39,754 nucleotides of DNA from Acidobacteriota bacterium (GTDB lineage Bacteria; Acidobacteriota; Terriglobia; Terriglobales; Acidobacteriaceae): positions 1 to 39,754 of the forward strand of contig JAJYVF010000039.1 in assembly GCA_021792135.1 (NCBI GenBank), read 5' to 3'. Shown in pieces: positions 3,698-38,938 of the stretch. Positions within the stretch are counted from its first letter, which is position 1, and every line of letters starts with the position of its first letter. The position numbers were made by a program, and so were the translations under genes. Below the pieces are notes generated by a model. It worked only from the letters and a program-made list of their open reading frames with translations. It did not search any database and was not told where the DNA came from.

Positions 3698-3698
3698 C

Positions 3699-7806: not shown

Positions 7807-7827
7807 GATCCGCCCCCCCAGTGAACA

Positions 7828-7900: not shown

Positions 7901-8005
7901 TCGGAAGACCGAATGGCGATGCAGGGGAGATGCAAGAGAGTCTGCGCATTCACTGTTGTCCGGCGTCACGTACCAGGGCTCGGTGCGCTGCTCCCCGGAC
8001 GGAGT

Positions 8006-8629
8006 TCATTCAGGAATCATTCCGATTTCGTCTCCCAATTCATGGAAGTGAAGCTGATACGCTCTCGTGGCGCGCTCCGTCAACCTCGCCTCCTCGACCA
8101 GGCGATGCTTGTCGAGATTGGGGGCGCCGATAGTCTGGTCAATGGCGTTCAGGTGACGCTGAATTCGATCGCGCAGCTGGTCGAGCTGCCGCATGCGCTG
8201 CTGCGCATTCTTTCGCTGTTGCTGGCTGAGCCCCTGATAAAGTTCTGCTCGATACTGTTCCAGGCTGCGAAAGTGCTCGCGAATCTGATTCTGGTTTCGG
8301 CTCACTGTTTCCGTGTTGATGGAAGGTGCCGCAGTGGCCTCTGCCATATCGCGGCTTCGGTCCCGGAGTTTCTCGAGGCTCTGGTTGCAGATCCTGTACT
8401 GACTTCGCTGCTGATCTGTCACCTGGGTGCGCGACCGCTGCATCTGCGTCTGTCGCGTGCGCGAAGGCGTACCCTGGCCACGCGGCACGCTCTGACCCGT
8501 CCGCTGACCGGCAGCCGGCCTTTGCTGGCCGACGGCATTGCCCGTTCCGCGGGCACCAGCCTCCGCGATGAGGAACCCTGCGGCCAAACTCAGAGTGAGC
8601 AAAAGTGAAAGATGTCGATTCGATTTCAT
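8006..8629 (-). CDS. Secreted Gln/Arg-rich helical protein, function unknown
   Basis: This 207-residue protein has a signal peptide (MKSNRHLSLLLTLSLAAGFLIAEAGA). A low-complexity Gly/Gln/Arg-rich linker follows to about residue 75. The rest is a charged helical region to the end, rich in Gln and Arg (for example RSLEQYRAELYQGLSQQQRKNAQQRMRQLDQLRDRIQRHLNAIDQ), that looks like an antiparallel coiled coil. A single Cys sits near residue 80. The ATG at 8629 has a strong ribosome-binding site (AAAGGAG, 8 bp away). I do not recognise a named family. It is divergent from the next small secreted protein, with which it shares a 345-bp promoter gap. A periplasmic or envelope-associated role is likely from the signal peptide only. 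Confidence 0.7.
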   Translation of the reverse strand: MKSNRHLSLLLTLSLAAGFLIAEAGARGTGNAVGQQRPAAGQRTGQSVPRGQGTPSRTRQTQMQRSRTQVTDQQRSQYRICNQSLEKLRDRSRDMAEATAAPSINTETVSRNQNQIREHFRSLEQYRAELYQGLSQQQRKNAQQRMRQLDQLRDRIQRHLNAIDQTIGAPNLDKHRLVEEARLTERATRAYQLHFHELGDEIGMIPE

Positions 8630-15839: not shown

Positions 15840-16416
15840 GGGCCGTGGGTTTTTGAGGCAACGGTCGCTCGCCGCAGTGCGGTTCGCGGATACGCCCGTC
15901 AGGAGGAGTCGAGAGGAAGCCAGCGCCATTGTCAGGGGTGCAGGCTTCCTTGCAGGCCGGACTCTCCGCAACAGCCAGAGGACAGTCTTTTCGCGCTCTG
16001 CTGTCAATGGCTCCGGGCCGGTACCGCCGCACTGCAGGCCGGGCGTATTATCTGCGGAGCACTTCTTCCCGGCCCTGGCCGCTCTTCTGCAGTCCGCAGA
16101 TGTTCGGCCCACGGATCTGGCACGTTACCGGCGAGACATCGCGTCGCATGCATCTCTGTAATTTTTTCGTATCCTCCGCCCCCGTTTGTCCCGCCAGGGA
16201 AGACACTGGGACTAAGAGCCTGTGGCAGAAGCCGGAAGTTCGCAAAATGCGCCCGTCAGGGGCTAAGGCCGCCTTGATTTTGCGGCGTATATGGCGCGAC
16301 GGAAGCCGTGCCCCTTCAAGACACAGCTTTGCCACAGGTGCTAAGCATTCCCCGTCCACCGCGGCATTGCCTTCTGCCGCATGTGCGCGCCGAGTGCTCT
16401 GCCGGAGGAATGTTCA
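15840..16416. other. Intergenic region with possible structured leader
   Basis: No credible gene lies in this 577-bp gap. Its right part, upstream of the radical SAM gene, contains a 9-bp inverted repeat CCTGTGGCA (16219-16227) / TGCCACAGG (16330-16338) that could close a roughly 120-nt structured leader. The core motifs of the cobalamin riboswitch (B12 box) were looked for and not found. No terminator with a clear T-run follows the aquaporin gene. Confidence 0.35.
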
Positions 16417-24200: not shown

Positions 24201-24880
24201 TAGCTGCCCGGGTTGAGGGCCGCCACCACGCTCTCTCCATCGGGGCCAACCCAGACACCCACGTTGAAGGGGGTGCCTTCAGGAGTCTTTTCCAGGGAGT
24301 CCGGTCCGCCCTGATCCGCGGACGAACCCCACGTCAGTTTCTGCGTGGAAAAGCCCTTTACACCGGAATGAGCCAGGATGGTAGGCAGGGAAGCAGGAAA
24401 GCCGAAGCAGTCGGGAAGCATGTATTCGGCGCTGTATTTGCCGAAGTTCGCGCGGAACCAGTCGTTGCCGTAGAGGATCTGGCGGATGAGCGACTCGGCG
24501 CTGGGAGCATTCACGTCGCCTTCCTCGGCGGAGGATCCTGCGGGATACCACTGGCCGGAGGCCACGTACTGTTTCACCTTTGCAAAATCGGCGGGGTAAT
24601 ACTCCTTCATCAGGCGGTAGCGATTGGCGCCGCTGAAGTTGAAGATATAGTGTGGATACTTTGCGAAAAGCGCGAAGTTATCCTCCATCGTATTACGAAG
24701 GTATTCATCGATCACCTGGGGATACTCCCAGCGCCATTCGGTATCCAGGTGGGCATAGCCGACGACATAGAGGGTAGGCTGTTTCGTCAGATCGGGCGGC
24801 TGGGAGTTTTGCGCCCCGGCTGCGCTGAAGCAACCAATCAGGGTGCAGACGGCTGATGATAGCAGGATCTTTCGCAACAT
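21287..24880 (-). CDS. Secreted GH38 alpha-mannosidase
   Basis: This 1197-residue exported glycosidase (signal peptide MLRKILLSSAVCTLIGCFSAAGA) belongs to GH38, zinc-dependent retaining alpha-mannosidases. The N-terminal catalytic domain carries the zinc motif in YVVGYAHLDTEWRWEYP (about residues 41-57), the nucleophile Asp in YMLPDCFGFPASLP (about 155-168), and a further zinc His in WMLVMGGQFHDLAAGT (about 470). A helical insert rich in Gln (LTDAQQKLQQLETRLRQAMRNGQELQQQDVQEY) lies near residues 250-285. Beta-sandwich domains follow, and the last 250 residues form extra beta modules. The ATG at 24880 has GGAGAG 7 bp upstream; the frame extends only a few codons beyond. It faces a divergent TonB-dependent receptor gene and shares with it a pair of LacI-type operators, so mannoside-responsive control is likely. 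Confidence 0.92.
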   Translation of the reverse strand: MLRKILLSSAVCTLIGCFSAAGAQNSQPPDLTKQPTLYVVGYAHLDTEWRWEYPQVIDEYLRNTMEDNFALFAKYPHYIFNFSGANRYRLMKEYYPADFAKVKQYVASGQWYPAGSSAEEGDVNAPSAESLIRQILYGNDWFRANFGKYSAEYMLPDCFGFPASLPTILAHSGVKGFSTQKLTWGSSADQGGPDSLEKTPEGTPFNVGVWVGPDGESVVAALNPGSYSGGIYTDLSKPLPAAPPDAALTDAQQKLQQLETRLRQAMRNGQELQQQDVQEYVALRNEIDGLSKARQDQEMDRYQGDWAARVENNGKITGVYTDYHYYGTGDIGGAPDEGSVKRLEAIVTKGEASMPPAGYIEFRREAHPNWPEVPVGAGPVNVVSATADQLFKDITPAEETHLPEYTGEMELTNHSAGSLTSQAYQKRWLRKEEVLADSAEKASVAASWLGGRTYPLDRMNDAWMLVMGGQFHDLAAGTATPRAYEFAWNDDTIAMNQFADVLRSATEAVSSALDTEAEGIPVVVYNPLNIAREDVVEADVRFPGNAPEQVSVTGPDGREVPAQLSAGKVLFLAKAPSVGYAVYSVRPGGGGGAEESSLHVTQNSLENRYYRVQLNSDGDIASIFDKQLGKELLSAPMRLAISYDNPEQWPAWNMDWDQEQAPPKDYVHGPAAIRIVEDGPARVALEVTRTTDGSKFVQTIMLSAGDAGRRVEIGNAIDWNTRESNLKAVFPLTAANRMATYNLGIGTIQRPSAQPKKFEVLSHQWIDVTDARGTWGSTILTDCKNGSDKPNDNTIRLTLIRTPGVRGGYPDQATQDLGHHEFIYGFAGHADDWQDGDTAWQALRLNDPLVAFQSAKHPGTLGREFSLIRVSSPKVRIMALKRAEMSNEVVLRLVEMDGKPEPNVRISFAGPIQSAREVNGQEQPLGPAKVVDGALVTSFTAYQPRTFALTLGPAPARVTAAHSVPVSLHYDLATASNDGAPVTGGFDGKGNALPAEMLPSRIAFNGVEFQLAPASTGAANALVPAGQTISLPRGNYNRIYVLAASADGDQDAAFKVGDQEHTLTIEDWGGFIGQWDDRQWQAKEITVPARPGRPAHTEMDDYAVMTGIRPGYIKRAALAWYCSHHHDAAGKNVAYSYSYLFAYPIDLPRGARSITLPNNDKIRILAMSVADQDPSITPVQPLYDTLGRSEPGPVSQP

Positions 24881-25012
24881 GGCAGGGCTCTCCAAAGAAA
24901 GGGTTTAGCTGGTGTGGCTGGCCCGCGTGCAGCGATTCGCGGGCTCGGTTCGCGGCAAAGCGGCGGTTCGGGACAGCGGCTGGAACCCCGGAGGATGGGC
25001 GGCTCTCGGCGC

Positions 25013-25363: not shown

Positions 25364-25549
25364 GCCTCCGTAGTTTGCAGTAATTCCAGGGAAACCAGTC
25401 ACAAAACCGAACGGCTTCATCCTTACCAGCAGTGGCAAAGAGGAGAGGCTCGTACGGCATAACAACAGTCCAGGCCGCGTCCAACGGGGCGCCGGTCTGC
25501 AGCCGTAGCAGTGTATAGAGGCAGTGGCATTTTCACAGGAGAGCAAGCA

Positions 25550-28500
25550 ATGACATCTCGATTCGCCCCGCATCACCGCGTGTGGGCGCGGGTGGCGTTA
25601 CGCGCGTGTTTCGGCGCGTTCGTCCTCGCATTTCTGGCATTGACTCCCCGAACACTTTTGGCCCAGGCCGTCGCCGGAATCACCGGCACGGTCACGGACT
25701 CTTCCGGAGCGGTTCTGCCGGGGGCGCATGTCACCATCACCAACGAAGGCACCGGCGTGGTCAGCAAGACGGACACCAGCAGCGCCGGAACCTATTCGGT
25801 TACCGGGCTCAACCCGGGCAGCTATACAGTGACCGTGGAATCCAGCGGCTTCCGTAGTTTCTCGGTGAAAGGGGTTCTCGTCGAAGTCAGCAAGACGGAC
25901 ACGATCAATGCCGCGCTGACGCCGGGAGCCAGCACCCAGACGGTCCAGGTGACTGCCAGCCCGGTGGCGCTGAATACCACCCAGCCGCAGATCTCCACCA
26001 CCATGGAGCCGGCCGTGGTCGCGTCGCTGCCTGTGGAAGTCTCCGGCCGCGGACGCCAGGTCGACACGCTGCAGTTTCTCTCGCCGGGGGTAACCGGGAG
26101 TACCTTCTCGCACCGCGTGGACGGTGGCGTCGACTTCGAGCAGGAGATCGTCTACAACGGCATTCCGGCTCCGCAGCCGGAAACCCAGGGCTATACCACG
26201 AATTTCAATCCGCCCTTCGAACTGGTCCAGGAGCTGGCCACGGAGCGCACGACTTTTGCTGCGCAGTTCGGCCTGGGCCAGGGCGCGCTCAGCTATCAGA
26301 CGGCCTCTGGCACCAACCACTTCCACGGCGACCTCTTCGAGATCAACCGTAACAGCATGTTTGACTCGGTTGGCTTCTTCAACGGGCCGGCATGGGGCGG
26401 CCGGAATTCTCCGCCCACCGACCACGAGAACAACTACGGCTTCACCATCGGCGGGCCGGTGATCATTCCCAAACTTTACAACGGCCGCGACCGCACCTTC
26501 TTCCACTACAGCCAGGAGTGGTACAAGGAGGTGACATTAGACACCGCCTTCTCCACCGTTCCGACGGCCCAGCAGAGGACAGGCGACTTCAGCGACTTCG
26601 TCAACGGAGCCACCGGTCAGCTCATCCCTATCTATGTTCCGACGGGATTCCACTGCAACAATCTGACGCCCGGACAGCAGTTTCCCGGGAACGTTATCCC
26701 ATCGAACTGCATCAGTCCGATCTCGGCACAATACGCGCAGAACCTCCCGAACCCGGACCATGTCGGCAGCGGAATCGGAGGACTGGACAGCAACAAGAGC
26801 TACGTCAACATTCCAACGCCAACCATTCAGCATGTCTGGGGCTTCACCGTCGATCAGACTCTGACTCCAACCCAGATGATCCACTACACCGAATGGCGGA
26901 ACAGCTTTTCGGACTACACCTTCGACAACGCGCCTTTTGTTTTTGCACCGAACCCGCTGAACAGTCAGAAGTACGAGCCGGCGCTGGGTAGTGTCTGGCT
27001 GCTCAACTACAGCAACACCATCACCCCCAAGCTGGTGATGACGGCCGGCTTTGGGTGGATCGGCGAACTCAACAACCAGTTCAACCAGACGCGCTACAGT
27101 TTCCCCGCGATCTCCGGCGGTATCATTCCTCCCAACATCACCTTCGACGGTCAGCATGCGCCGACCAGCTGGGGCACGAGCGGTTCATGGCTGCAGTCCA
27201 TCAACCGCAAGCTGGGCATTGCAATCGTGAACAACTTCCTCTGGACCAAGGGCCGGAATACCTTCAACATCGGCCAGGAGTTCCGGCGCAGCTACCAGGA
27301 CGACAACGAGGAACAGACCGAGGGTGGCCACTTCGCCTTCAGCCAAAAAGAGACCTCCGTACAGAACCCCAGCGATCCCAACTTCGGCAACTACGGCAGT
27401 TCTTTTGCCAGCTTCCTGCTCGGCATTCCGGATTCGGCGAACCGGAGCAACTCGCAGGAGCTGCGTCTGCGCAACCTGGATTATTCGCCTTATATCCAGG
27501 ACGACATCAAGGTGACGCCCAAGCTCACGCTCAACCTCGGGCTCCGCTGGGACATCATGGTCCCATTCACGGAGAACAACAACCTGATCGTCTTCTTCGA
27601 TCCGACGATCCCCAACCCCGCTGCCAGTGGCCTCAACGGTGCGGTGACCAAGTTCGGCAACTGCACGGGCTGTGCCGGGTATACCCGGGCCGCCATCCAC
27701 TGGGGGCACGTCGGCCCGCGGCTGGGCTTTGCCTACATGCTGAACAACAAGACCGTCGTGCAGGGCGGCTTCAGCATCGCCTTCCTCGATGGCGGCGCGT
27801 ATGAGTACGGGACCAACAAGGTGGCCGTCAACTACGGCAACCTGCTCACCGGCGCCTTCTCGCAGCCATCGAGGGGCACCAACGTTTCCTCGTACGGAAG
27901 CTGGGATTCGCGCCTGATGCCCAACCCCACGGCGACTCCCTTCAGCCCCGGTCTGGGTGTGGGCGGCGTGCAGGTGGATGCCTTCAGCAAAAACGATGGC
28001 TACGCCCCCTATAGCCAGCAGTGGAGCCTCAACGTGCAGCGGCAGCTGCCCTATGAAATGTTCGCGACTCTGGCCTGGGTGGGGGCCAAGGATGTTCATC
28101 TTCCCAGCCAGCTCAACTCCTTCAACCAGAGCTACCCGAGCTCCCTTGCGCTGCAGGGCAAGCTTGGGCTGAGCTTCGCGGATGGCTCGGCGCAGGCTGC
28201 CGGGTTCCAACTCCCCTACGCGAACTTTGTGAACCAGTTCGGCGGGTCGGCGACCGTGGCCCAGGCACTAGTTCCCTTCCCGCAGTATGGATACATCTTC
28301 AACAACTTCGAGGGCTCCGGCTCCGACCTCTACGACAGCATGCAGTTGCAGCTGGAGAAGCGGTTCACCAACGGTTTCTCCTTCCTTGCCGGCTACACCC
28401 TCGCTTCGGAATACAACAACACTTCCAGCGGATTCACGAGCTTCATCGGGAATGCGCTGAACAGGTACAACCAGAAACTGGAGTGGGCGCCGACCAGCGG

Positions 28501-29089
28501 CTCACCTCCGCAAACGTTCAAAATCAGCGGAACCTACGAGCTGCCGATCGGTCCGGGCAAGGCTATCTTCAACAACCGCGGCCTGACCGGGCAGGTTCTC
28601 GGCGGCTGGCAGATTGGCTGGATTGTCGATGAAGAAGCGGGCACGCCGGACGGCGGCCTGAGCGAAAACCTGTCGTTCCCATGGCTGAATGCCAATAACA
28701 ACCGTCCGGACCGCACCTCCGCAGCCCTGAGCACTGCGTCGTACAGCAATGCCAACGGCTACTTCACCGGCAAGTCCCACGTGGCGCAGATCTGGCAACA
28801 GGACGCATTCTCGCAGACCGCTCCATACGCGCTGGGAAATGCCTACCGCACCTACGGTCCGATGAAGGACACTCCCTTCTACAACGAAGACGCGAACGTG
28901 AGGAAGCACTTCTTCCTCGGGGAACGCTTCCAGGGGATTCTGCAGTTCGACTACTTCAACGTCCTCAACCGAACTATTTTCTCGAATCCTGACAACAACT
29001 TCAGCGACGGCACCTTTGGCCAGGTCATCGGCCAGGGTTCACAAATCAGCAACCGGCAGGGACAGGTTCAGTTCCGATTGGAATTCTGA
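25550..29089 (+). CDS. Large TonB-dependent receptor with carboxypeptidase-regulatory-like domain (Oar-like)
   Basis: This 1179-residue outer-membrane protein has a long signal peptide ending near LLAQA (about residue 39). A carboxypeptidase-regulatory-like beta-sandwich follows at about residues 43-135 (AGITGTVTDSSGAVLPGAHVTITNEGTGVVSKTDTSSAGTYSVTGLNPGSYTVTVESSGF). A plug region comes next (QTVQVTASPVALNTTQPQISTTMEPAVVASLPVEVSGRGRQVDTLQFLSPGV), then a large barrel ending in FRLEF. This is the type of receptor greatly expanded in Acidobacteriota; ligands are mostly unknown. The ATG at 25550 has AGGAGAG upstream. A LacI-type operator and promoter shared in design with the divergent alpha-mannosidase gene point to a saccharide ligand, possibly a mannoside. 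It is followed by two hairpins and then the TPR/CRTAC1/cytochrome operon. Confidence 0.88.
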   Translation: MTSRFAPHHRVWARVALRACFGAFVLAFLALTPRTLLAQAVAGITGTVTDSSGAVLPGAHVTITNEGTGVVSKTDTSSAGTYSVTGLNPGSYTVTVESSGFRSFSVKGVLVEVSKTDTINAALTPGASTQTVQVTASPVALNTTQPQISTTMEPAVVASLPVEVSGRGRQVDTLQFLSPGVTGSTFSHRVDGGVDFEQEIVYNGIPAPQPETQGYTTNFNPPFELVQELATERTTFAAQFGLGQGALSYQTASGTNHFHGDLFEINRNSMFDSVGFFNGPAWGGRNSPPTDHENNYGFTIGGPVIIPKLYNGRDRTFFHYSQEWYKEVTLDTAFSTVPTAQQRTGDFSDFVNGATGQLIPIYVPTGFHCNNLTPGQQFPGNVIPSNCISPISAQYAQNLPNPDHVGSGIGGLDSNKSYVNIPTPTIQHVWGFTVDQTLTPTQMIHYTEWRNSFSDYTFDNAPFVFAPNPLNSQKYEPALGSVWLLNYSNTITPKLVMTAGFGWIGELNNQFNQTRYSFPAISGGIIPPNITFDGQHAPTSWGTSGSWLQSINRKLGIAIVNNFLWTKGRNTFNIGQEFRRSYQDDNEEQTEGGHFAFSQKETSVQNPSDPNFGNYGSSFASFLLGIPDSANRSNSQELRLRNLDYSPYIQDDIKVTPKLTLNLGLRWDIMVPFTENNNLIVFFDPTIPNPAASGLNGAVTKFGNCTGCAGYTRAAIHWGHVGPRLGFAYMLNNKTVVQGGFSIAFLDGGAYEYGTNKVAVNYGNLLTGAFSQPSRGTNVSSYGSWDSRLMPNPTATPFSPGLGVGGVQVDAFSKNDGYAPYSQQWSLNVQRQLPYEMFATLAWVGAKDVHLPSQLNSFNQSYPSSLALQGKLGLSFADGSAQAAGFQLPYANFVNQFGGSATVAQALVPFPQYGYIFNNFEGSGSDLYDSMQLQLEKRFTNGFSFLAGYTLASEYNNTSSGFTSFIGNALNRYNQKLEWAPTSGSPPQTFKISGTYELPIGPGKAIFNNRGLTGQVLGGWQIGWIVDEEAGTPDGGLSENLSFPWLNANNNRPDRTSAALSTASYSNANGYFTGKSHVAQIWQQDAFSQTAPYALGNAYRTYGPMKDTPFYNEDANVRKHFFLGERFQGILQFDYFNVLNRTIFSNPDNNFSDGTFGQVIGQGSQISNRQGQVQFRLEF

Positions 29090-29094
29090 ACCAT

Positions 29095-29123
29095 GCGGCG
29101 AGGGTTTGCCCTCGCCGCGTTTT
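29095..29123 (+). terminator. Rho-independent terminator after the receptor gene
   Basis: A 10-bp GC-rich stem, GCGGCGAGGG (29095-29104) with CCCTCGCCGC (29109-29118), encloses a TTTG loop and is followed by GTTTT. It begins 5 bp after the receptor stop codon and is the best intrinsic terminator in the window. Confidence 0.85.
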
Positions 29124-29132
29124 CCCTTCAAC

Positions 29133-29160
29133 CGGCGGCGCATCCGCAAATGCGCCGCCG
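29133..29160. repeat. Second GC-rich hairpin in tandem
   Basis: CGGCGGCGCAT (29133-29143) pairs perfectly with ATGCGCCGCCG (29150-29160) around a CCGCAA loop. It lies 10 bp after the first terminator and has no T-run on the plus strand. It could be a processing or stability element, or a roadblock terminator. Confidence 0.6.
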
Positions 29161-29188
29161 CGGTATTTCGGGCTGTGCAAAGGGGCCC

Positions 29189-29194
29189 TATAAT
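29189..29194 (+). promoter_or_regulatory. Consensus -10 element ahead of the TPR/CRTAC1 operon
   Basis: An exact TATAAT lies only 8 bp before the ATG at 29203. The -35 position (TTTCGG, 29166-29171, 17-bp spacing) is poor. If used, transcription would start near 29201, giving an almost leaderless mRNA for that ATG or a leader of about 23 nt for the GTG at 29224. Confidence 0.5.
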
Positions 29195-29202
29195 ACGGTT
29201 TC

Positions 29203-30393
29203 ATGAAGATGGAGATGTTCTTCGTGTACCGCTTCCCTGGAAGCTTCGCGTGCGGCGTGTTGATCCTGCTGGCCCTTGCGGCTCCGCTCACCGCGCAGTC
29301 TTCCGGGAATGAAGTGACTCCCGCGGTACAGCAGCTTTACGAGGAGGCAAGGGCGGCCGAGCAGCAGGGCGACGCTGCCACGGCGATCGCAAAATACCGC
29401 GAGATGATTCGCCTGGCGCCTCGCCTGGCGCCGGCCTATAACAACCTGGGCATGCTCTACTTCAATGGGCGGGACTATACCAGCGCCGCCTCGGTTCTGG
29501 AGCGGGGGCTGCGTGTGAATCCGAATATGCCCACGGCGGCGGCGCTGCTGGGGCTGAGTTATTCCGAGCTGGGGCAAAATCAGAGAGCGGAACCGCTGCT
29601 GGAGCGCGCGGCGCGGGCCAATCCCTCTGACGCGAATGTGCAGCTGGGTCTGGCCCATGTGCTTTTGAACCTTGGCCGGCCTGAGGAAGCGACCCAGTGC
29701 CTGAACGAGTACCTGAAGGAAAACCCCAGGGACCAGCAGGCGTTGTATCTGCTCGGCAAGACCTATCTGCAGTTATCGGAGGCGGCCCTGGGGAAGATCA
29801 ACCAGATCGATCCCAATTCTTATGTGGCTCACGAGGTTGCCGGGGAGATCGATGAGAGCATGCATAACTACGATGGCGCTCTGCTGGAATTCAAGAAGGC
29901 GGTCGATCTTGCTCCGCAGCAGCCGGGGACCCATCTGCGCCTGGCGAATATCTATTGGGTGATGGGTAAATGGAATTCCGCCCAGGCGGAGTTTCGTCAG
30001 GAGCTGACGATCAACCCCAATGACTGTATTGCGCGGTGGAAGCTGGCCAACTCGATGCTGGAGGTGAACGGCTCGAGCGACGAAGCTCTGGACGATCTGA
30101 ACAAGTCGATCGCCGCGTGCCCGAATCTGATGCAGGCGCATGTGGACCGCGCGCGGGCTCTGATCAAGCTGAGCCGGCAGAATGACGCGCTGCCGGACCT
30201 GCTGCTTGCGGAAAAGAACAGCCCGGACGAGCCTTCGATCCATTTCTATCTGGCATCGGTCTACCGGGCCCAGGGTCACGCCGAACAGGCTAAAGAGGAA
30301 CTGCACCGATACGGAGAGCTGCAGCGGCAGGCCAGCGCGGCCGTAGCCCAGCAAGCCAATGAAGAGATCACGGCCAAGAGCGCGGCGCATTAA
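29203..30393 (+). CDS. Secreted TPR-repeat protein
   Basis: This 396-residue protein has an N-terminal signal peptide (VYRFPGSFACGVLILLALAAPLTAQ) followed by about nine tetratricopeptide repeats (for example AIAKYREMIRLAPRLAPAYNNLGMLYFNGRDYTSAASVLERGLRVNP). It is probably periplasmic and acts as a protein-binding scaffold. One repeat is shortened near LSEAALGKINQIDPNSY. The ATG at 29203 lies only 8 bp after a TATAAT sequence. The in-frame GTG at 29224 has GGAG 9 bp upstream and begins exactly at the signal peptide, so it may be the true start. The gene overlaps the CRTAC1 gene by 35 bp and heads a four-gene operon. Confidence 0.85.
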   Translation: MKMEMFFVYRFPGSFACGVLILLALAAPLTAQSSGNEVTPAVQQLYEEARAAEQQGDAATAIAKYREMIRLAPRLAPAYNNLGMLYFNGRDYTSAASVLERGLRVNPNMPTAAALLGLSYSELGQNQRAEPLLERAARANPSDANVQLGLAHVLLNLGRPEEATQCLNEYLKENPRDQQALYLLGKTYLQLSEAALGKINQIDPNSYVAHEVAGEIDESMHNYDGALLEFKKAVDLAPQQPGTHLRLANIYWVMGKWNSAQAEFRQELTINPNDCIARWKLANSMLEVNGSSDEALDDLNKSIAACPNLMQAHVDRARALIKLSRQNDALPDLLLAEKNSPDEPSIHFYLASVYRAQGHAEQAKEELHRYGELQRQASAAVAQQANEEITAKSAAH

Positions 30394-32236
30394 GCCGCTG
30401 GCGTGGTGGGCCGTGGGTCTGGCGTGTGCCGGCGGGCTCGCTTGCGCGCTGGCACAGATCGAACAGGGCGCGTCATCGCAGGGAGGCATGAGCACCGCGG
30501 GGGTTTTCGCGCCGGTGCACGATGCGCAGAACCGCCCGATTACGGCGGGTGGATTTGCCTCCACGGGGCCGGTGGTCTTCAGGGACGTCTCCCGGGAATC
30601 GGGGCTGGCGACGTGGCGCTACTCCGGAGGAACGCCGGAGAAAGCAACGATTGTCGAGTCGCTGGGAGGCGGCGTGGCGCTGCTGGACTACAACAACGAC
30701 GGCTGGCTCGATATCTATCTGGTGAACGGCATGACCTATGATGCGATGGCAGGCAAAGCCCAGCCTCCGCATGCGGCGCTGTTTCGCAATAACCACGATG
30801 GAACATTCACCAATGTGGCGGCACAGGCAGGCGTCACCAATGACCGCTGGGGAGTGGGTGTTGCGGTCGGCGATTTCGACAACGATGGCTGGCCGGATCT
30901 GTACGTCACCAATGTGGCGGGCGGAAACCGGTTGTATCACAACAATCACGACGGCACCTTTACGGATGTAGCAGAGAAGGCAGGCGTCGCCCTGGGAGAC
31001 TGGTCGACCGGGCCGACATTTGGAGACTACGACGGCGACGGGCTGCTGGATCTGTTTGTGCCGGGATATACGGCGTACGATTTCCGGAATCCGCCGAAAG
31101 CCGGGTCGAACCAGGTGGTTTCGAACAACTGCCGTTTTCGCGGGGTGAGCGTCTTCTGCGGGCCTCGCGGGCTGCGCGGGGAGCACGATCATCTCTTTCA
31201 CAACAACGGCAACGGAACGTTCACCGATGTGAGCCGCAAGGCCGGCGTGGACGATCCGGCCGGCTACTACGGGCTCACGGCGTTGTTTGCGGATCTCGAA
31301 GGGAATGGCAGGCCGGACCTGCTGGTGGCGAACGATTCGACTCCTAACTATCTCTATCGAAACAAAGGCGACGGGACATTCGAGGACCTGAGCTTCGAAT
31401 CCGGCTATGCGGTGAATAAGGACGGGCGGCCGACGGCGACGATGGGGATTGCGGTTGGAGATTATCTGAACAAGGGATCCCTGGATATTGTCAGCACCGA
31501 TTTCTCGGATGATTACGATGTTCTCTACCGGAATGACGGGCCGCTGTCGTTCAGCGACGTGAGCTTTGAGGCCGGGATCGCCCCGCCGACCATCCCCTTT
31601 CTGGGCTGGGGCGTTGGCTTCATCGATTTCGACAATGACGGCTGGAAAGACCTGTTTATAGCCAATGGGCATGTTTACCCGCAGGTGGATCAGCATGACT
31701 GGGGAACGAGCTTTGCCCAGCGGCCCTTGCTGTTTCGGAACACGCGGGACGGGAAGTTTGCGCTCATGCCCGCAGTCGAAGGTTCGGGGCTGGCGCGGCT
31801 CCTGACCGCACGCGGCGCAGCTTTCGGCGACCTGTTCAATGACGGCAAAATCGATGTGGTGATCAATAATCTGGATGAACCGCCTGCACTGCTGCGCAAT
31901 GTGGATCCCGATCGACACCACTGGGTGGAATTTCGTCTGGTCGGAAATGGGAAGGGCCCGCGCGATGCCGTGGGGGCTTCGCTTTTCCTGTCGGCCGGCG
32001 GCACCACGCAGCGCGGCGATGTGCTGAGCGGGGGCAGCTTCGCCTCCTCCAGCGACCCGCGTGTGCACTTTGGACTGGGAGATACCAATTCGATCGACGG
32101 GCTGGAGATTCGCTGGCCCGGTGGCGCGATGGAGAAGGTCGCGGTTCCAGCTCCGGGCTGTATCTATACGATCGAACAGGGCCACGGAATCACGGGCCGC
32201 ATGTGCCCGAACGGATCCGGCAGAGAGGCGCGATAG
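30359..32236 (+). CDS. CRTAC1-family protein (FG-GAP/VCBS propeller with ASPIC/UnbV domain)
   Basis: This 625-residue exported protein has a signal anchor or signal peptide (WWAVGLACAGGLACALAQ). A seven-bladed beta-propeller of FG-GAP/VCBS repeats follows, with calcium-binding-like loops: DYNNDGWLDIYLVNG, VGDFDNDGWPDLYVTN, FGDYDGDGLLDLFVPG, ADLEGNGRPDLLVAND and IDFDNDGWKDLFIANG. It ends in an ASPIC/UnbV domain (HHWVEFRLVGNGKGPRDAVGASLFLSAGGTTQRGDVLSGGSFASSSDPRVHFGLGDTNSIDGLEIRWPGGAMEKV). Such proteins are extracytoplasmic and of unclear function. The ATG at 30359 lies inside the end of the TPR gene, so the two are probably coupled. The stop is 9 bp before the multihaem cytochrome gene. Confidence 0.88.
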   Translation: MKRSRPRARRIKPLAWWAVGLACAGGLACALAQIEQGASSQGGMSTAGVFAPVHDAQNRPITAGGFASTGPVVFRDVSRESGLATWRYSGGTPEKATIVESLGGGVALLDYNNDGWLDIYLVNGMTYDAMAGKAQPPHAALFRNNHDGTFTNVAAQAGVTNDRWGVGVAVGDFDNDGWPDLYVTNVAGGNRLYHNNHDGTFTDVAEKAGVALGDWSTGPTFGDYDGDGLLDLFVPGYTAYDFRNPPKAGSNQVVSNNCRFRGVSVFCGPRGLRGEHDHLFHNNGNGTFTDVSRKAGVDDPAGYYGLTALFADLEGNGRPDLLVANDSTPNYLYRNKGDGTFEDLSFESGYAVNKDGRPTATMGIAVGDYLNKGSLDIVSTDFSDDYDVLYRNDGPLSFSDVSFEAGIAPPTIPFLGWGVGFIDFDNDGWKDLFIANGHVYPQVDQHDWGTSFAQRPLLFRNTRDGKFALMPAVEGSGLARLLTARGAAFGDLFNDGKIDVVINNLDEPPALLRNVDPDRHHWVEFRLVGNGKGPRDAVGASLFLSAGGTTQRGDVLSGGSFASSSDPRVHFGLGDTNSIDGLEIRWPGGAMEKVAVPAPGCIYTIEQGHGITGRMCPNGSGREAR

Positions 32237-32245
32237 GCAGATCCC

Positions 32246-33877
32246 ATGCGAATTTTCTCCTCGATTCTGCTTCTGCTGACGGTACACGCAGCCGCTCGTC
32301 TGGCGACCCCTGTCCGCGTGGCTGATGCGCCCTGCGAAAAATGCCATCGGGCGATTTATCGCAGCTATCTTCTGACGCCCATGGCCAACGCCAGCGGGCT
32401 GGCTGAGGAACGTTTCATTCCCGGCAAGTTCGAACACAGGGCGTCGGGGGTTGAATACACAATTTCCGAGTCAGGGGGCACACCGGTCCTCTCGTACCGC
32501 GATCTTCGTGACCCCAGCGTATCGGGTCACTGGCCTCTGACGTATTTCCTCGGTTCCGGGCACCTTGGAACGACCTGGCTGTATTCGCTGAATCACTATC
32601 TTTTCGAATCGCCGGTTGCATGGTATGCGGCTTCGGGCGGATACGACATGAAGCCGGGTCTGGAAGAAGCAACGGAGATGCTGCCCTCTCTTCCGATGGA
32701 GAGCGGATGCCTGCGGTGTCATATGAGCGCGGTGCAACCGACCGATGCCGACACCATGAATCGCTACAGCAGCCTGCCCTTTCTCCATGCCGGCATTACC
32801 TGCGAGGCTTGCCACGGCGACACAACGCAGCATGTGCTGTCCGGGGGCAAAGCGCCGGTCGTCAACCCGGCCCGGCTCGATCCGGAACGCCGGGATTCGG
32901 TCTGCATCAGCTGCCATCTGGAGGGCGACGTCAGCGTGGAGCGCGCAGGCCATTCGGTCCTGGACTATCGCCCGGGCGAGTCGATTTCTGAATACCTGGC
33001 ATACTATGTGTATGCGAAAAGCAATCCGCTGGCGCGCGGCGTGAGCGAGGTGGAGCAGCTAAGCCAGAGCACATGCAAGCGCATGAGCGGGGATAAGATG
33101 TCCTGTACAAGCTGTCATGATCCGCATTACAGGCCAGCCCCACAGCAGCGCGCGGCGTTCTACCGTGCGAAGTGTCTGACCTGTCATACAGCACCCGGCT
33201 TCGCGGAATCGCACCATCCTGAGAATCCGGACTGCACCAGCTGCCATATGCCGCACGCCGGAGCGCAGAACATCCCCCATGTTGCATGGACCGATCACCG
33301 GATTCTCCGCCAGCCCGATCTCACGCCAACGGACACGGCGCCGGAGCCGGAACGTCAGCTGGTGCCCATCTTCTCTCCCGGAGCAACTTCACGTGACCTG
33401 GGTATGGCGTACTATAAGGCTGTTCTGGAGGGGAACCGTGCCGTCGAACCCCAGGCATGGTCGCTGCTCCGGTCCGAGCAGCAGGAGATCGTCAACGACA
33501 GGACGGCTCTGGATGCCCTGGGAATCCTGAGCGCCGAACGGGGAGACGATCAGACCGCGGAGTCCAGCTTCCGGCGAGTGCTCACTCTTGATCCCGCCGA
33601 TCTCACTGCACTTCCCAATATGGCAACCCTGCTGGCGAGGCAGGGAGAGATCCCGCAGGCTGTGCTTCTGCTGCGCCGGGCCTTTGCGCGGAATCAGGAC
33701 ATCGGCGGTCTCGCGATGAATCTTGCACGGGCGGAATGCATGACCGGCGATATCACCGGAGCGCAATCCACGCTGCAGAAAGCTCTGGTTTACAACGCCG
33801 GTGTCGGGAAGATGCGGCGGTTGCTGGATCAGGCAGGTGAGTGCGGCACATCGGGGCAGAAGGTGGGGAAGCCATGA
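32246..33877 (+). CDS. Seven-haem c-type cytochrome with C-terminal TPR domain
   Basis: This 543-residue exported protein (signal peptide MRIFSSILLLLTVHAAA) has seven CxxCH haem-attachment motifs: C30EKCH, C155LRCH, C186EACH, C220ISCH, C287TSCH, C310LTCH and C330TSCH. Their spacing resembles cytochrome c554/NapC-NrfB-like multihaem proteins with an extra 120-residue insert between haems 1 and 2. Residues from about 380 to 535 are TPR repeats (TALDALGILSAERGDDQTAESSFRRVLTLDPADLTALPNMATLLARQGEIPQAVLLLRRAF). A cytochrome tethered to a TPR scaffold suggests a periplasmic electron carrier that docks on a partner. No oxidoreductase catalytic motif was recognised. The next gene overlaps its stop as ATGA. 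Confidence 0.92.
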   Translation: MRIFSSILLLLTVHAAARLATPVRVADAPCEKCHRAIYRSYLLTPMANASGLAEERFIPGKFEHRASGVEYTISESGGTPVLSYRDLRDPSVSGHWPLTYFLGSGHLGTTWLYSLNHYLFESPVAWYAASGGYDMKPGLEEATEMLPSLPMESGCLRCHMSAVQPTDADTMNRYSSLPFLHAGITCEACHGDTTQHVLSGGKAPVVNPARLDPERRDSVCISCHLEGDVSVERAGHSVLDYRPGESISEYLAYYVYAKSNPLARGVSEVEQLSQSTCKRMSGDKMSCTSCHDPHYRPAPQQRAAFYRAKCLTCHTAPGFAESHHPENPDCTSCHMPHAGAQNIPHVAWTDHRILRQPDLTPTDTAPEPERQLVPIFSPGATSRDLGMAYYKAVLEGNRAVEPQAWSLLRSEQQEIVNDRTALDALGILSAERGDDQTAESSFRRVLTLDPADLTALPNMATLLARQGEIPQAVLLLRRAFARNQDIGGLAMNLARAECMTGDITGAQSTLQKALVYNAGVGKMRRLLDQAGECGTSGQKVGKP

Positions 33878-34818
33878 GGATATCGGCTATTGCCGCTCGT
33901 GGAATCCTGATCCTGGGGGCGGTTCTTTTCGTTCCCCTCGCGGTCTGCCAACAGAAATCAGGGGATCTGGAGCGAGCTCGCAGCCTCGCGATCGCGGGAA
34001 AACTGGCGGAAGCAGAAGCCATTCTCCATGGCGCGATCCAGCAGGATCCCTCCTCCGCGGACGCCCACTTCCTTCTCGGCTACATATTGTTCCGCGAAGA
34101 GAAGCCGCGAGATTCGCTGGCGGAATATACGGCTGGCGCACGCGCGCGCCGCCCAGGGGCTGACGATTTCAGAGTCATCGCGTCCGATTACGTGCTGTTG
34201 GGCGATTACGCTGATGCTGCGAAATGGTTTACCGAGGTAACCGCGGAGAAGCCGGACGATGCAAATGCCTGGTATTTGCTGGGCCGGGCACAATATAACG
34301 AGGATCATTTCTCGAGCGCCGTGAGCAGCTATCAGCACGCGCTGGCTCTTCAACCGCGCTTCATCGAGGCAGAGAACAATCTCGGACTGGCCTGGCAGGG
34401 CTTGAACGACACGAACCATGCGATGACGGCGTTTCAGACGGCTGTTGACTGGCAGCAGGACCATCCTGTGGATGCTCAGCCCTACCTGAATCTGGGCAGT
34501 CTGCTGACGGATCAGAATCATGCGGACAAGGCACTGCCATATTTGCAGCAGGCCGCTGCTCTGGCCCCGAAGAACCCAAAGGTTCACGAAAGTCTCGGCC
34601 GCGCCTACGAGGCCCAAAATCAACTGGGCCAGGCCCAGCGCGAGCTGGAAGAGGCTTCTGCACTGGCCCCCGGCGTTTCAGGACTCCACTTCAAACTGGG
34701 CCGTATCTATCAGCGCGAAGGTCTCCGCCAGGAGGCGCAGCAGCAGTTCGCGATCTGTGCCCGACTCAACAGCACGCATTCTTCAAAGGAGACGCCGAAC
34801 CCGTTTACCCCTGACTGA
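33874..34818 (+). CDS. Secreted TPR-repeat protein
   Basis: This 314-residue protein has a signal peptide (MRISAIAARGILILGAVLFVPLAVCQQ) with a Cys at the cleavage region (VC-QQ), so a lipoprotein is possible though the lipobox is imperfect. About eight TPR units follow (for example AEAILHGAIQQDPSSADAHFLLGYILFREEKPRDSLAEYTAG and HAMTAFQTAVDWQQDHPVDAQPYLNLGSLL). The ATG at 33874 overlaps the cytochrome stop (ATGA), so translation is coupled. It is the last gene of the operon; no strong terminator follows. Confidence 0.85.
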   Translation: MRISAIAARGILILGAVLFVPLAVCQQKSGDLERARSLAIAGKLAEAEAILHGAIQQDPSSADAHFLLGYILFREEKPRDSLAEYTAGARARRPGADDFRVIASDYVLLGDYADAAKWFTEVTAEKPDDANAWYLLGRAQYNEDHFSSAVSSYQHALALQPRFIEAENNLGLAWQGLNDTNHAMTAFQTAVDWQQDHPVDAQPYLNLGSLLTDQNHADKALPYLQQAAALAPKNPKVHESLGRAYEAQNQLGQAQRELEEASALAPGVSGLHFKLGRIYQREGLRQEAQQQFAICARLNSTHSSKETPNPFTPD

Positions 34819-35241: not shown

Positions 35242-36288
35242 ATGGTGAAGAAACGTCAGCGCCCAACACTCAGCGAAGTAGCTGCAAAAGCCCGGGTCGG
35301 AACGACAACCGTTTCGCGGGTGATCAACGGGGGACATCGTGTCGACCCGAAGACCCTGGCCCGGGTTCTTCGTGTCATCGAGACGCTCGGCTATACGCCG
35401 AACCAGGCAGCGCGCATTCTCAAGGGCGACCGTACCAGGACGATTGGCCTTTTGATTCCCAGCATTGCCGATCCTTTCTTTTCAAGCTGTGCGGAGGCGG
35501 CCCAGGCCATCGCCCGCTCCCATGATTCGCTGCTCATTGTGACTACAACTCACAACGATCCGAAGATTGAGATTGAAAGTGTGGACGTGCTGATGCGGCA
35601 CCGGTCCGACGGACTGATCATTGCACCCGCCGATTCGGAAAGCCAGACATTGCGTGGAGCGCTTCATCGGGCCGCCGTGCCCGTGGTGGCGCTTGATCGG
35701 CCATTCTCAGGTTCGTCGATTCCCGCGGTGGTTGCCGATAACTATGCCGGTGCGAAAATGGCGACGCAGCACTTAATCGATCACGGCTACAAGCGAATTG
35801 TCTGCATGACCGGGGAACCGAATCTTTATACGATTAGTGAGCGGATGCGCGGGTATCGCAAGACCGTCGAAGCTGCTAAGCTTCCATGCCTTCTGGATAC
35901 CTCGATCCAGGATTACAAGTCGGCCGAGCACGCAGTCGAGAGCATGCTGGCGCAGCCCCATCCGCCCGACGCAATCTTTACTCTCAAGAACAGCACCACG
36001 ATCTTTGCCTTCGAAGCGCTGCAGAAGCTCAACATTCCCATCCCCGCTTCGGTTGCCCTGCTCGGCTACGACGATTTCGAACTGGCGGCGGCTGTTCGTC
36101 CCTCCATCAGTGTCATCCAGCAGCCGATTGCCGAGATCGGGCGCATTGCGGCCGAACTGCTGTTCGACGCGCTGCTCAGGCCAACCAGGGGCGAGAGCGT
36201 TGCCGAACACGCGATCGGGCAACAGATTCAGCTCGAGACGCACCTGATCCGGCGTAGTTCCTGCGGGTGTCCTCCCTCCGCGTCATGA
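35242..36288 (+). CDS. LacI-family transcriptional regulator
   Basis: This 348-residue regulator is complete. The N-terminal HTH is TLSEVAAKARVGTTTVSRVINGGHRVDPKTLARVLRVIETLGYTPNQAARILKGDRTRTIGLLIPSI (residues 9-75). A periplasmic-binding-protein-like sensor domain follows to about residue 335, with the typical LLGYDDFELAAAVRPSISVIQQPIAEIGRIAAELL. Such proteins sense sugars and repress or activate catabolic genes. It follows the TPR/CRTAC1/cytochrome operon in the same direction and converges on a Tat-exported hydrolase gene. It is the only intact LacI-type regulator in the window and thus a candidate for binding the paired operators at 25013 and 25346; this is inference only. The start at 35242 lacks a strong ribosome-binding site. 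Confidence 0.92.
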   Translation: MVKKRQRPTLSEVAAKARVGTTTVSRVINGGHRVDPKTLARVLRVIETLGYTPNQAARILKGDRTRTIGLLIPSIADPFFSSCAEAAQAIARSHDSLLIVTTTHNDPKIEIESVDVLMRHRSDGLIIAPADSESQTLRGALHRAAVPVVALDRPFSGSSIPAVVADNYAGAKMATQHLIDHGYKRIVCMTGEPNLYTISERMRGYRKTVEAAKLPCLLDTSIQDYKSAEHAVESMLAQPHPPDAIFTLKNSTTIFAFEALQKLNIPIPASVALLGYDDFELAAAVRPSISVIQQPIAEIGRIAAELLFDALLRPTRGESVAEHAIGQQIQLETHLIRRSSCGCPPSAS

Positions 36289-36427: not shown

Positions 36428-38938
36428 CTATTGCATCGCCTTCGTCGTGGAATCGAAGATCAGCCAGACCTCCGCCACCTGGCAACCCCGGCCATTGCTG
36501 CCCATTCCCGCCGCGCGCGTCCAGGTAAGTGTCAGTTCGCCCCGGGCCGTCGCCTCCGGTGGAATCGCAAATTCCTGGGGTGCCGGCGGCCAGGCCCGCA
36601 GGATGAGCGGATGTATCTCCACCGAGTCATTCGCCACAAGGCGAAGCCTGATCTGCGGCGCATCACCCGAGTAGACCACACGCAGTTTATACCCCCTCTT
36701 CTTATTCAGGCCCGAGTAGCGCATCTGCAGGGGAGTATCGTACAGAGCTTCTGCCCAGTGCTTCCACGCCTGTGGTGCCCGATCCTGCAGTCGATCGGGA
36801 TAATCGCACCCAATCAGCGGCGTGTGACGAAACTCCGGATCGGGCGCTCTCTCCTCGGGTATCACCAGGTGAGGCCGGTTCCGGGTATCTCCCAACTCAT
36901 CGTAATAGCCCCCGGGTCCCGGATCCGCGCGGAAGAGCAGATCGTGGATGGCTGCAATCTGCTTCATCGGATCGCTCTCCTTCCGGATCTCCAGAATCCT
37001 GCGGCGCATCCACAGGACATCGCTCACGGGCGTATCCAGGGTATCCAGATTGGCGGCACGTTCCACTGCCTCGGCATCATAGCGCTCCACCGCGAGCTGC
37101 ATGCGAATGCTCTGGAACAGGACCCCGGCGAGATTCTTCACCCGGGCACGCAGGCGACCGCTGGCTGGCTCCAGGAGGGTTTCTTCCAGCACGCGCTGCG
37201 ATTCGGCCAGCAGCAGATCCGGTCGCAAGCCGTTCGGAGGCAGCGTTGCCGGCTCTTCTCCAATCCCCAGGGCCACACCACTCCAGCCGATTTCCAGGGT
37301 GCGGCCAAGGATATCGCGAGCACGTACGACGTGGGCGGTCTCATCCAGCAAACGCTCGCGCACAAATGCATCGTAGTATGCCCGATACAGCGCCTGCTGG
37401 AATCTCCAGTTCTCCCTCACGGCCGGCGAGCAATTCCGCTCCATGTCTGCAAACCGCTCCAGCGTGACTTCCACGCCTGCATTCGTGAGCAGCGGGCCCT
37501 CCCAGTTCCTTTCCAGATCCAGAAGCCCCTGCGCGAAGCCTTCCTGCTGCTCCCTGCCCACGAAGTAGTGCGCAAAATCGCGCAGCACATCCTGAATCGG
37601 CTGCTGTGAGTCCCATGCCAGGGAGCTCCAGACAAACTTGTTGACATCGTCATTGCACCCTTCCGAATAGGAGATGAACCCGATCGTTCCGGGCATCACA
37701 TCGCGCAGGATGGCTGCCTCCCCGCGTGGCCGCGGATTGATGACTTCACGCCCCTCGGTGAGCTGAAAGGCCAAATCCCAGTCCGGGACCGGATACTGGC
37801 ACTGGAGACTGTGCGTGATGTCGGGATAGCAACGGATCGGATAACGCCGCGGCAGGGCCTCACGAAGCTCCTTCACCGAGAGTCGTGACATCGGCGCGAA
37901 GACCACACCATCCAGCCAGGACATGGTATGGGGCTCACGTGCAATCTCGAGAAACTCCTGCATCCACTCGCGGCTGAAGCCCTGCGGAGATACCCACATC
38001 TGCGCCTGGGGATGATAGCGGCGGAGACTCGTCTTCTGTTTCTCGAGCAGCGGCAGCAGATACTTCGGTTCGGTGTGCCCCGGATCGCCTCCCGGAACAA
38101 ATACAGCGTCGATGCGCGGCAGCGCTTCGAAGGTGCGAGCCCATTCCTGCACAGCCTTCTCCACCGTTGCCGGATCTGCGTAGCTGCCGTCCATCGCCGG
38201 GTACCAGATCCACACATCCGGCCCGTAATCATCGGCAATCCGGGACATTTCTGCCATCATTTGCCGGGGCGGCAGCAGGAAATGCGGGCTGTCAGGTAGA
38301 TCGTCAGTATGCGGTGGCAGCAGTTCGACTGCATTCGTGCCATACATCGCGAGGTCGCGGATGTACTGATCCCACATCTGCACAGACCAGGCATCATAGG
38401 AATTGGTCTTCGGCCGATATCCCAGCTGATGCCCTCGCAGGCGATATTCGGGATGGCTGACCAGGTTCAGTGGCGCATCCGGCAGCCGCGCTTCCTGCCG
38501 GCCGAAGTCGATCATCCGCAGCAGTTTTCCTGTTCCGTACAGCAGACCCCGCTGATCCGCCCCCACTACCGCGATCCACTGTCCATCTCCGTCGTCCCCG
38601 GTCCGCAGCAGAAACCCTTCCGGCGGCAGATTGCGGACTCCTGACAGAGAAATGCGGCGGCCGAATTCGCCGGCACTCTTTCTCGTTCCCAGGTACACCG
38701 TGACCGGCAATGAGCCCGGCGCGGCAGTGGGCTCATGATCCTGAACAGCCCACCGGATTCCACATCGCTTCTCTACCTCCTCAAGGAGGACCTGGGCTAT
38801 CTTCTGTCCCCGGTCTGTCTTTCGTGGAACTACGATCTGCGCCTTTTGCAGGTCGATGTCACCCCCGCTTTGAGCCAGCACCCATCCAGGCGTGCAGACC
38901 GTGGCTGCTGCAAGTCGAAGAAAATTTCTGCGCCTCAT
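36428..38938 (-). CDS. Tat-exported glycoside hydrolase, GH67/GH20-like (alpha-glucuronidase or hexosaminidase type)
   Basis: This 836-residue protein begins with a Tat-like signal (MRRRNFLRLAAATVCTPGWVLAQ). An N-terminal domain of about 120 residues (IVVPRKTDRGQKIAQVLLEEVEKRCGIRW...GSLPVTVYLG) matches the accessory alpha/beta domain shared by GH20 and GH67. A TIM-barrel region follows from about residue 165 (YRLRGHQLGYRPKTNSYDAWSVQMWDQYIRDLAMYGTNAVELLPP), with acidic stretches DDYGPDVWIWYPAMDGSY and FVPGGDPGHTEPKYLLPLLEK. A helical region and a C-terminal beta domain (LRLVANDSVEIHPLILRAWPPAPQEF) close the protein. Exact family and substrate are unsure. The ATG at 38938 has AGGAG about 12 bp upstream. 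It converges on the LacI-type gene. Confidence 0.68.
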   Translation of the reverse strand: MRRRNFLRLAAATVCTPGWVLAQSGGDIDLQKAQIVVPRKTDRGQKIAQVLLEEVEKRCGIRWAVQDHEPTAAPGSLPVTVYLGTRKSAGEFGRRISLSGVRNLPPEGFLLRTGDDGDGQWIAVVGADQRGLLYGTGKLLRMIDFGRQEARLPDAPLNLVSHPEYRLRGHQLGYRPKTNSYDAWSVQMWDQYIRDLAMYGTNAVELLPPHTDDLPDSPHFLLPPRQMMAEMSRIADDYGPDVWIWYPAMDGSYADPATVEKAVQEWARTFEALPRIDAVFVPGGDPGHTEPKYLLPLLEKQKTSLRRYHPQAQMWVSPQGFSREWMQEFLEIAREPHTMSWLDGVVFAPMSRLSVKELREALPRRYPIRCYPDITHSLQCQYPVPDWDLAFQLTEGREVINPRPRGEAAILRDVMPGTIGFISYSEGCNDDVNKFVWSSLAWDSQQPIQDVLRDFAHYFVGREQQEGFAQGLLDLERNWEGPLLTNAGVEVTLERFADMERNCSPAVRENWRFQQALYRAYYDAFVRERLLDETAHVVRARDILGRTLEIGWSGVALGIGEEPATLPPNGLRPDLLLAESQRVLEETLLEPASGRLRARVKNLAGVLFQSIRMQLAVERYDAEAVERAANLDTLDTPVSDVLWMRRRILEIRKESDPMKQIAAIHDLLFRADPGPGGYYDELGDTRNRPHLVIPEERAPDPEFRHTPLIGCDYPDRLQDRAPQAWKHWAEALYDTPLQMRYSGLNKKRGYKLRVVYSGDAPQIRLRLVANDSVEIHPLILRAWPPAPQEFAIPPEATARGELTLTWTRAAGMGSNGRGCQVAEVWLIFDSTTKAMQ

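Follow-up and report, generated by a model that had tools for sequence, protein, structure and literature searches.

What does a seven-haem c-type cytochrome do in an operon of exported TPR and propeller proteins that follows a TonB-dependent receptor gene? The question is raised by a 39,754-nucleotide stretch of DNA from an Acidobacteriota bacterium of the family Acidobacteriaceae (GenBank assembly GCA_021792135.1, contig JAJYVF010000039.1), hereafter called the window. It encodes a TPR protein (TPR_A), a CRTAC1-family propeller, the cytochrome and a second TPR protein (TPR_B) directly behind the receptor (Table 1). Our preferred answer, which we put forward tentatively and would not call probable, is that these five genes form a redox-equipped module for the use of mannose-rich (N-glycan- or fungal-wall-like) glycans, TonB-dependent, probably LacI-controlled and with a possibly catalytic cytochrome. 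The receptor would import a glycan fragment, which the CRTAC1 propeller may bind or present, and the two TPR proteins would act as a scaffold for a putative complex; the seven-haem protein, through a candidate open-site, catalytic haem, would carry out a redox step within the periplasm or adjacent to it, and a LacI-family regulator may control the module. The domain families are already known, while their combination has, as far as we found, not been described previously; no description of the five-gene set was found in the open-licence literature (titles and abstract openings, partly from incomplete listings).

The four reading frames were all called on the plus strand, the last one over 33841-34818. 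The spacings between them are -35, +9 and -4 bp, which reproduces the two overlaps and the gap given in an earlier note on this DNA that was made from the sequence alone; the last value is counted from the ATG at 33874, and with a start at GTG 33841 the overlap of TPR_B with the cytochrome gene would be 37 bp. Pfam matches identified TPR repeats in the first and fourth products, five FG-GAP_3 stretches and an UnbV_ASPIC domain in the second, and Cytochrome_C554 with related c-type domains and a C-terminal TPR region in the third. Hydrophobic, Sec-signal-like N-termini were recognized by eye on all four proteins. The receptor gene may start at GTG 25511 or at an ATG shortly downstream.

Table 1. 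Coordinates of the features discussed in the text (window numbering) and the basis for each.
Feature	Position	Strand	Basis
GH38 alpha-mannosidase, divergent to receptor	21287..24895	-	Pfam, locus screen
TonB-dependent receptor, OMP_b-brl_4 + CarboxypepD_reg; cassette gene 1	25511..29089	+	Pfam; orthology
Intrinsic-terminator-like hairpin (12 pairs) + T-run 3' of receptor gene	29093..29120	+	terminator scan
Second strong GC hairpin, without T-run	29132..29162	+	fold
TATAAT, leaderless-type promoter element, 8 nucleotides 5' of TPR_A ATG (29189-29205 with ATG)	29189..29194	+	sequence; relatives
TPR_A, exported TPR protein, 396 amino acids	29203..30393	+	reading frame, Pfam, orthologues
CRTAC1-family FG-GAP propeller + UnbV_ASPIC, 625 amino acids	30359..32236	+	reading frame, Pfam, model
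Seven-haem cytochrome with C-terminal TPR domain, 543 amino acids	32246..33877	+	reading frame, Pfam, alignment, model
CXXCH 1	32333..32347	+	translation, alignment
Beta-sheet domain between haem 1 and haem 2, residues 60-135	32423..32650	+	model
CXXCH 2	32708..32722	+	translation, alignment
CXXCH 3, then invariant H196	32801..32815	+	translation, alignment
CXXCH 4	32903..32917	+	translation, alignment
C277, cysteine outside haem motifs, 117/117	33074..33076	+	alignment
CXXCH 5, then PH294	33104..33118	+	translation, alignment
CXXCH 6	33173..33187	+	translation, alignment
CXXCH 7, then M335, H345, H351	33233..33247	+	translation, alignment
TPR helices 382-532 of cytochrome	33389..33841	+	Pfam, model
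TPR_B, exported TPR protein, 314 amino acids from ATG; frame opens at GTG 33841	33874..34818	+	reading frame, Pfam, orthologues
LacI-family regulator 3' of operon	35242..36288	+	Pfam
Weak GH67N / GH20b-type N-terminal match, probable glycosidase	36428..38938	-	Pfam

The order receptor-TPR_A-CRTAC1-cytochrome-TPR_B is present at five loci (the window, L042, L045, L046 and L049), which represent five genomes from four genera (g1, g40, g70 with two genomes, and g18). The earlier note had proposed a check of the four-gene order in relatives, and the order is kept there; together with the reading frames and the Pfam matches, this supports its description of one operon of exported TPR and propeller modules with a seven-haem protein. 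In the four relatives with the full cassette the identity to the window proteins is 63-69% for the receptor, 62-65% for TPR_A, 71-76% for CRTAC1, 57-63% for the cytochrome and 54-56% for TPR_B; over six orthologous loci, all six of which have an orthologous receptor, it is 57-69% for the receptor, 58-65% for TPR_A and 53-56% for TPR_B. Chance reading frames were ruled out, as the five proteins have orthologues of 53-76% identity in the same order. The five genes are thus co-conserved, and the TonB receptor is part of the set. Their order is conserved but not obligatory, since the full set is not present at other loci of the cytochrome's clade (e.g. L048, L050, L051, L054-L057 and L059), L047 carries the cytochrome gene on the opposite strand, and L044, L052 and L053 show the order receptor-TPR-cytochrome-TPR, where a CRTAC1 gene that does not belong to the window-type clade lies upstream of the receptor. 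L043 begins inside the cassette, at a contig end, and at L053 the cytochrome gene (6924-8552) is split into two frames. With its clear boundaries, the conserved five-gene cassette represents a small testable unit for bacterial CRTAC1 function, and it could show whether soil Acidobacteriota employ haem redox chemistry when they use glycans.

The cytochrome contains exactly seven CXXCH motifs, starting at residues 30, 155, 186, 220, 287, 310 and 330. All 117 homologues aligned carry CXXCH in the same seven columns, a number of motifs that is partly a matter of choice because the homologues were selected for at least seven CXXCH and more than 400 amino acids. Besides the motifs, H196, C277, H294, M335 and H351, among other residues, are the same in all homologues, while H345 is found in 112 of the 117, and position 46 is occupied by Met (106), His (10) or Lys (1). 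Setting aside M335, which adjoins a haem-binding His, the only conserved candidates for distal ligands of the seven haems are M/H46 (116/117), H196, H294, H345, H351 and C277. As there are too few conserved His and Met residues for seven sixth ligands, at least one haem may be open, unless C277 acts as a ligand. All seven motifs are of the CXXCH type, and neither CXXCK nor CX15CH, a special catalytic haem motif, is present. Among special catalytic haem features, CXXCK and P460 are named in excerpts of PMC6703420.

An AlphaFold2 model of the cytochrome, built on an alignment of 73 sequences picked by hand, reached a pLDDT of 92.8 and a pTM of 0.90. Its best full-length fold match is OcwA (E 8e-7), followed by TPR proteins. 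Profile matches to solved sequences include 6r2q chain A (7.8e-18), OcwA (1.7e-17), c554 (1.6e-11) and MccA (4.7e-8), and cytochrome 'cf' is also among the nearest; 6r2q chain A, which we take to be MtrA, is labelled cystathionine beta-synthase in the database copy. By profile similarity over the core of haems 1 to 4, the protein is assigned to the c554/OcwA/MccA/NrfA superfamily, and it consists of a c554-like four-haem core, three further haems and a TPR tail. It shares with OcwA, MccA, c554 and NrfA/HAO the four-haem core and the CXXCHxPH and CXXCHMP motifs, but differs from them in having seven haems (not four, five, eight or nine), all bound by CXXCH, the invariant C277, and a TPR tail where NrfA, HAO, MccA and OcwA have a C-terminal three-helix or long-helix bundle. 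According to excerpts of PMC6703420, OcwA is a pentahaem module fused behind a c554 scaffold, its haems 2 and 5 are open, it reduces nitrite and hydroxylamine, and a beta-sheet domain is common to OcwA and MccA only. The stretch between haems 1 and 2 measures 120 residues here, about 105 in OcwA, 155 in MccA and 44 in c554 (profile alignments); here it forms a beta domain in the model, which can be set beside that of OcwA and MccA by description only.

Judged by its profile scores, the family is without an NCBIfam model of its own. The scores for GSU2203 (66.9 of 325 bits) and DmsE (52.4 of 192.2 bits) are far under the cut-offs, although such weak matches recur in 38 (GSU2203) and 36 (DmsE) of 38 family members; membership of the decahaem MtrA/DmsE/GSU2203 proteins was rejected on these scores and on the seven rather than ten haems. 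MccSep was discarded as a guide to C277, as it matches weakly and in the haem-1 region only (E 0.18) and is absent from the best 60 of 85 matches to the C277 region; the literature search found no paper under that name. A phage origin was likewise discarded, with no PHROGs match. It is quite doubtful, but conceivable, that seven-haem TPR cytochromes represent a new class of periplasmic oxidoreductases within the c554/OcwA/MccA lineage, in which the invariant S275-x-C277 takes the place of the known catalytic motifs at the centre of the haem pocket; here they would act on a glycan-derived substrate delivered by the TonB receptor and a lectin-like CRTAC1, as a redox branch of polysaccharide utilisation.

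The kinship to OcwA and, if our identification holds, to MtrA also bears on a role as an extracellular electron-transfer conduit or terminal reductase, since the protein is multihaem and exported, and its nearest full-length fold belongs to a cell-surface terminal reductase (excerpts of PMC6703420). MtrCAB and the verrucomicrobial conduits of porin and multihaem cytochrome (as outlined in excerpts of PMC5615132) resemble the cassette in placing a multihaem protein near an outer-membrane barrel gene. The barrel here, however, is a TonB receptor with OMP_b-brl_4 and CarboxypepD_reg domains, and the cytochrome has seven haems and a TPR tail. No MtrB-type porin and no second cytochrome were found among the scanned proteins of the cassette and the window, and this, together with the glycan surroundings, makes a mineral-respiring conduit less likely; we consider it highly improbable. 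The electron-transfer assembly proposed in the earlier note is not upheld in the sense of extracellular respiration, as the cassette has no porin-cytochrome partner and the genes that recur around it encode glycoside hydrolases, a glycan phosphorylase and LacI regulators.

The propeller is assigned to the CRTAC1 family, with FG-GAP_3 repeats and UnbV_ASPIC above the Pfam cut-offs and a CRTAC1 fold. It has five matches to a DxDxDG-type Ca-loop pattern. Its model (20 sequences, pLDDT 83.9) best matches murine CRTAC1 (9etn, E 1.7e-29), with the fold shared across 587 alignment columns (TM 0.66/0.74), although the two proteins have 19% identity and the bacterial one is operon-borne; weaker fold matches are GlcNAc-binding fungal lectins and aldos-2-ulose dehydratase. 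No tested function of bacterial CRTAC1-type propellers was found in the literature search.

Of 119 cytochrome genes, 33 (28%) have a CRTAC1 gene at a distance of up to 2.5 kb, compared to five with one at 5-7.5 kb (about 9%, as flanks were long enough for this bin in only about 53 gene-equivalents), and 19 of the 119 have one directly adjacent on the same strand. The same distance count gave 36 and 5 for TonB receptors and 40 and 13 for TPR genes. In the window's own genome all three seven-haem TPR genes have a CRTAC1 gene within 2.5 kb, one pair being convergent (rough p = 1e-4, with the density taken from one genome and the neighbourhoods chosen after seeing them); a fourth match in this genome (C41) is weak (E 4.8e-6). 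Three matches to the c-type haem assembly domain PF01578 are also encoded. In a tree of 60 CRTAC1 proteins of at least 480 amino acids, the cytochrome-linked members fall into several clades (the window type, the C58 type, L058/L087, L121/L148 and a four-protein Planctomycetota clade), and window-type partners cluster alike in this tree and in that of the cytochromes (114 of the 117 homologues, those with exactly seven CXXCH). Haem proteins beside CRTAC1 recur, in two phyla here and in the HZS-like clusters of Planctomycetota and a few other groups, where, in excerpts of PMC12758564 (2025), a CRTAC1 gene is flanked by genes for homologues of HZS-alpha and of HZS beta-gamma, and some of the beta-gamma homologues contain c554 domains. 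In the present cassette CRTAC1 is accompanied instead by the seven-haem TPR cytochrome, the two TPR proteins and the TonB receptor, and Pfam revealed neither an HZS-alpha protein nor a propeller with a peroxidase-type domain in it.

Receptor, TPR proteins and propeller could also form a SusCD-like binding and uptake complex, with the cytochrome as a passenger or structural component and no redox step in uptake. A TonB receptor and/or TPR gene stands beside cytochrome-less CRTAC1 genes at several loci of the same genome (e.g. L167, L171 and L173), and in three cassettes (L044, L052 and L053) no CRTAC1 gene lies between TPR and cytochrome. The cassette resembles a SusCD-type polysaccharide utilisation locus in its TonB receptor with CarboxypepD_reg and in the glycoside hydrolase (GH38 in the window and part of the relatives) and regulator nearby, but has TPR, CRTAC1 and cytochrome genes where such a locus has SusD, a family with no match among the proteins scanned around it. 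The cytochrome and its flanking TPR genes nevertheless remain together even where CRTAC1 has moved, and CRTAC1 and cytochrome genes overlap by four bases in four genomes. We regard uptake without a redox step as unlikely.

Glycan-related genes recur near the cytochrome at part of the loci. The neighbour screen used 11 query proteins, a subset of the carbohydrate-active enzyme (CAZyme) families; neighbouring reading frames were called mechanically, chosen greedily and labelled from profiles of the window proteins, so that small, overlapping or divergent genes can be missed. GH38 genes, of which the genome has five, lie near the cytochrome or operon at five of 21 clade loci (the window, at 7.3 kb from the cytochrome, L048, L052, L055 and L059; rough p = 6e-5, on a one-genome density and for neighbourhoods already seen when chosen). 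GH130 genes lie within 3 kb of cytochrome paralogues in five genomes (C58 of the own genome, L071, L075, L076 and L079), the sole GH130 gene of the own genome being 77 bp behind its paralogue on C58, and GH95 is about 3 kb away in L046 and L058. LacI matches occur at seven of 121 loci (the window, L048, L052, L058, L087, L111 and L114), five of them in the 21-locus clade.

Several observations weigh against this glycan-linked redox reading. Sixteen of the 21 clade loci have no GH38 gene in the covered stretch, and acidobacterial TonB loci may often stand among CAZyme genes, the control being GH38 and GH130 counts in one genome. Pfam identified no sugar dehydrogenase among the cassette proteins, and LPMO_10 is absent from the genome, which also ruled out a role of the cytochrome as electron donor to a lytic polysaccharide monooxygenase. 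The fold matches to OcwA (TM 0.38-0.42, root mean square deviation 22) and to the lectins (TM 0.33-0.36 of the query) are weak, and a shared fold is not shared binding. The own genome, with 5.1 Mb, shows a strong expansion of the family to about 28 CRTAC1/FG-GAP_3 loci, and paralogues without a cytochrome (L162, L165 and L169) are 62-64% identical to the window's CRTAC1, which is therefore no special kind. Ten proteins scanned beside other CRTAC1 loci of this genome are mixed (peptidase S15, sensor kinase, arabinofuranosidase-type, glutaminase-A-type, squalene-hopene cyclase, GMC oxidoreductase, propeller with peroxidase-type domain, and three unmatched). In the cytochrome tree, 82 of 114 rows are without CRTAC1 within 2.5 kb; it is next to or near the cytochrome in none of 33 rows of the clade that holds Bacteroidota and in only five of 16 rows of the planctomycete clade. 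Given this rarity, the cytochrome may have a core function that is independent of CRTAC1 and of glycans, and its spread without a CRTAC1 match, in the stretches covered, in most other lineages means that its chemistry may be general and recruited into this cassette.

Alternatively, the cytochrome could be an independent enzyme of the c554/OcwA/MccA kind that reduces or oxidizes a small molecule (nitrite, hydroxylamine, sulfite or similar) and lies beside TonB/CRTAC1 loci in Acidobacteriaceae by chance. The family extends across many phyla, with relatives, among the matches listed (80 of 418 relatives taken), in Acidobacteriota, Planctomycetota, Bacteroidota, Rhodothermota, Ignavibacteriota, Calditrichota, Fidelibacterota and Myxococcota. 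It was found in at least 81 of 200 genomes of the bacterial family (E <= 1e-10) and at least 115 of 297 of the phylum (E <= 1e-15), both lower bounds, as at most 10 and six candidates per genome, respectively, were scored. The 20 neighbour proteins scanned are mixed, and the kinship to OcwA, c554, MccA and NrfA, with OcwA as a nitrite and hydroxylamine reductase, is of the same tenor. A chance association, however, sits poorly with a CRTAC1 linkage that is repeated in separate clades and phyla and complete in the own genome, and this explanation appears to us rather unlikely.

Regarding the boundary behind the receptor, the earlier note had the four genes separated from it by terminators and possibly independent. 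A hairpin and a promoter-like element do lie there (Table 1), while the receptor, with an orthologue at every orthologous locus compared, is not incidental to the set. Terminator-like sites in the region (13) are not above shuffled sequences (mean 11.5), but GC hairpins, mostly with a T-rich tail, were found in all seven orthologous receptor-TPR gaps folded (without shuffle control). TATAAT-N8-ATG precedes TPR_A at five of eight cassette loci (the window, L042, L044, L052 and L053), and is not present at L045, L046 and L049, nor was the element found at the receptor-TPR pairs of L047, L050 and L085; the background rate of TATAAT-N7-9-ATG is 43 matches in 1754 kb, both strands. The hairpins behind the receptor and the TATAAT at fixed spacing suggest that the four genes probably have a leaderless-type promoter of their own.

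Further loci carry related arrangements. On C61 (L171, 1763-5574) a CRTAC1 gene is followed by one for a YNCE-propeller and CCP_MauG protein with three CXXCH, a pair that resembles the HZS beta-gamma-like/CRTAC1 pairs in excerpts of PMC12758564. On C47 (L164, 1-8600) a TonB receptor, a GMC oxidoreductase, a five-CXXCH protein, CRTAC1 and a TPR protein are encoded in one run, as a further CRTAC1 locus with a haem redox chain. A divergent relative with eight CXXCH lies next to or near the seven-haem gene at L121, L148 and L153 (Acidobacteriota), and at L133 (7842-9785), on a contig titled Candidatus Kuenenia stuttgartiensis, a family member stands beside a WD40 protein. SAM hydroxide adenosyltransferase, YceG, ACCA and SBP_bac_10 were rejected as constant partners, their occurrence not being constant across loci. 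In three genomes (L060, L061 and L072) a SAM hydroxide adenosyltransferase gene directly precedes a seven-haem TPR paralogue, and in two Bacteroidota (L132, 9721-10764; L146, 9967-11013) the seven-haem gene is immediately followed by one of the YceG family. Elsewhere in the window, positions 693-6168 (minus strand) encode Complex1_49kDa + 30kDa and NADHdh proteins with the appearance of a hydrogenase-4/complex-I-like membrane complex, and positions 16381-17904 a radical SAM protein with B12-binding and DUF4070 domains.

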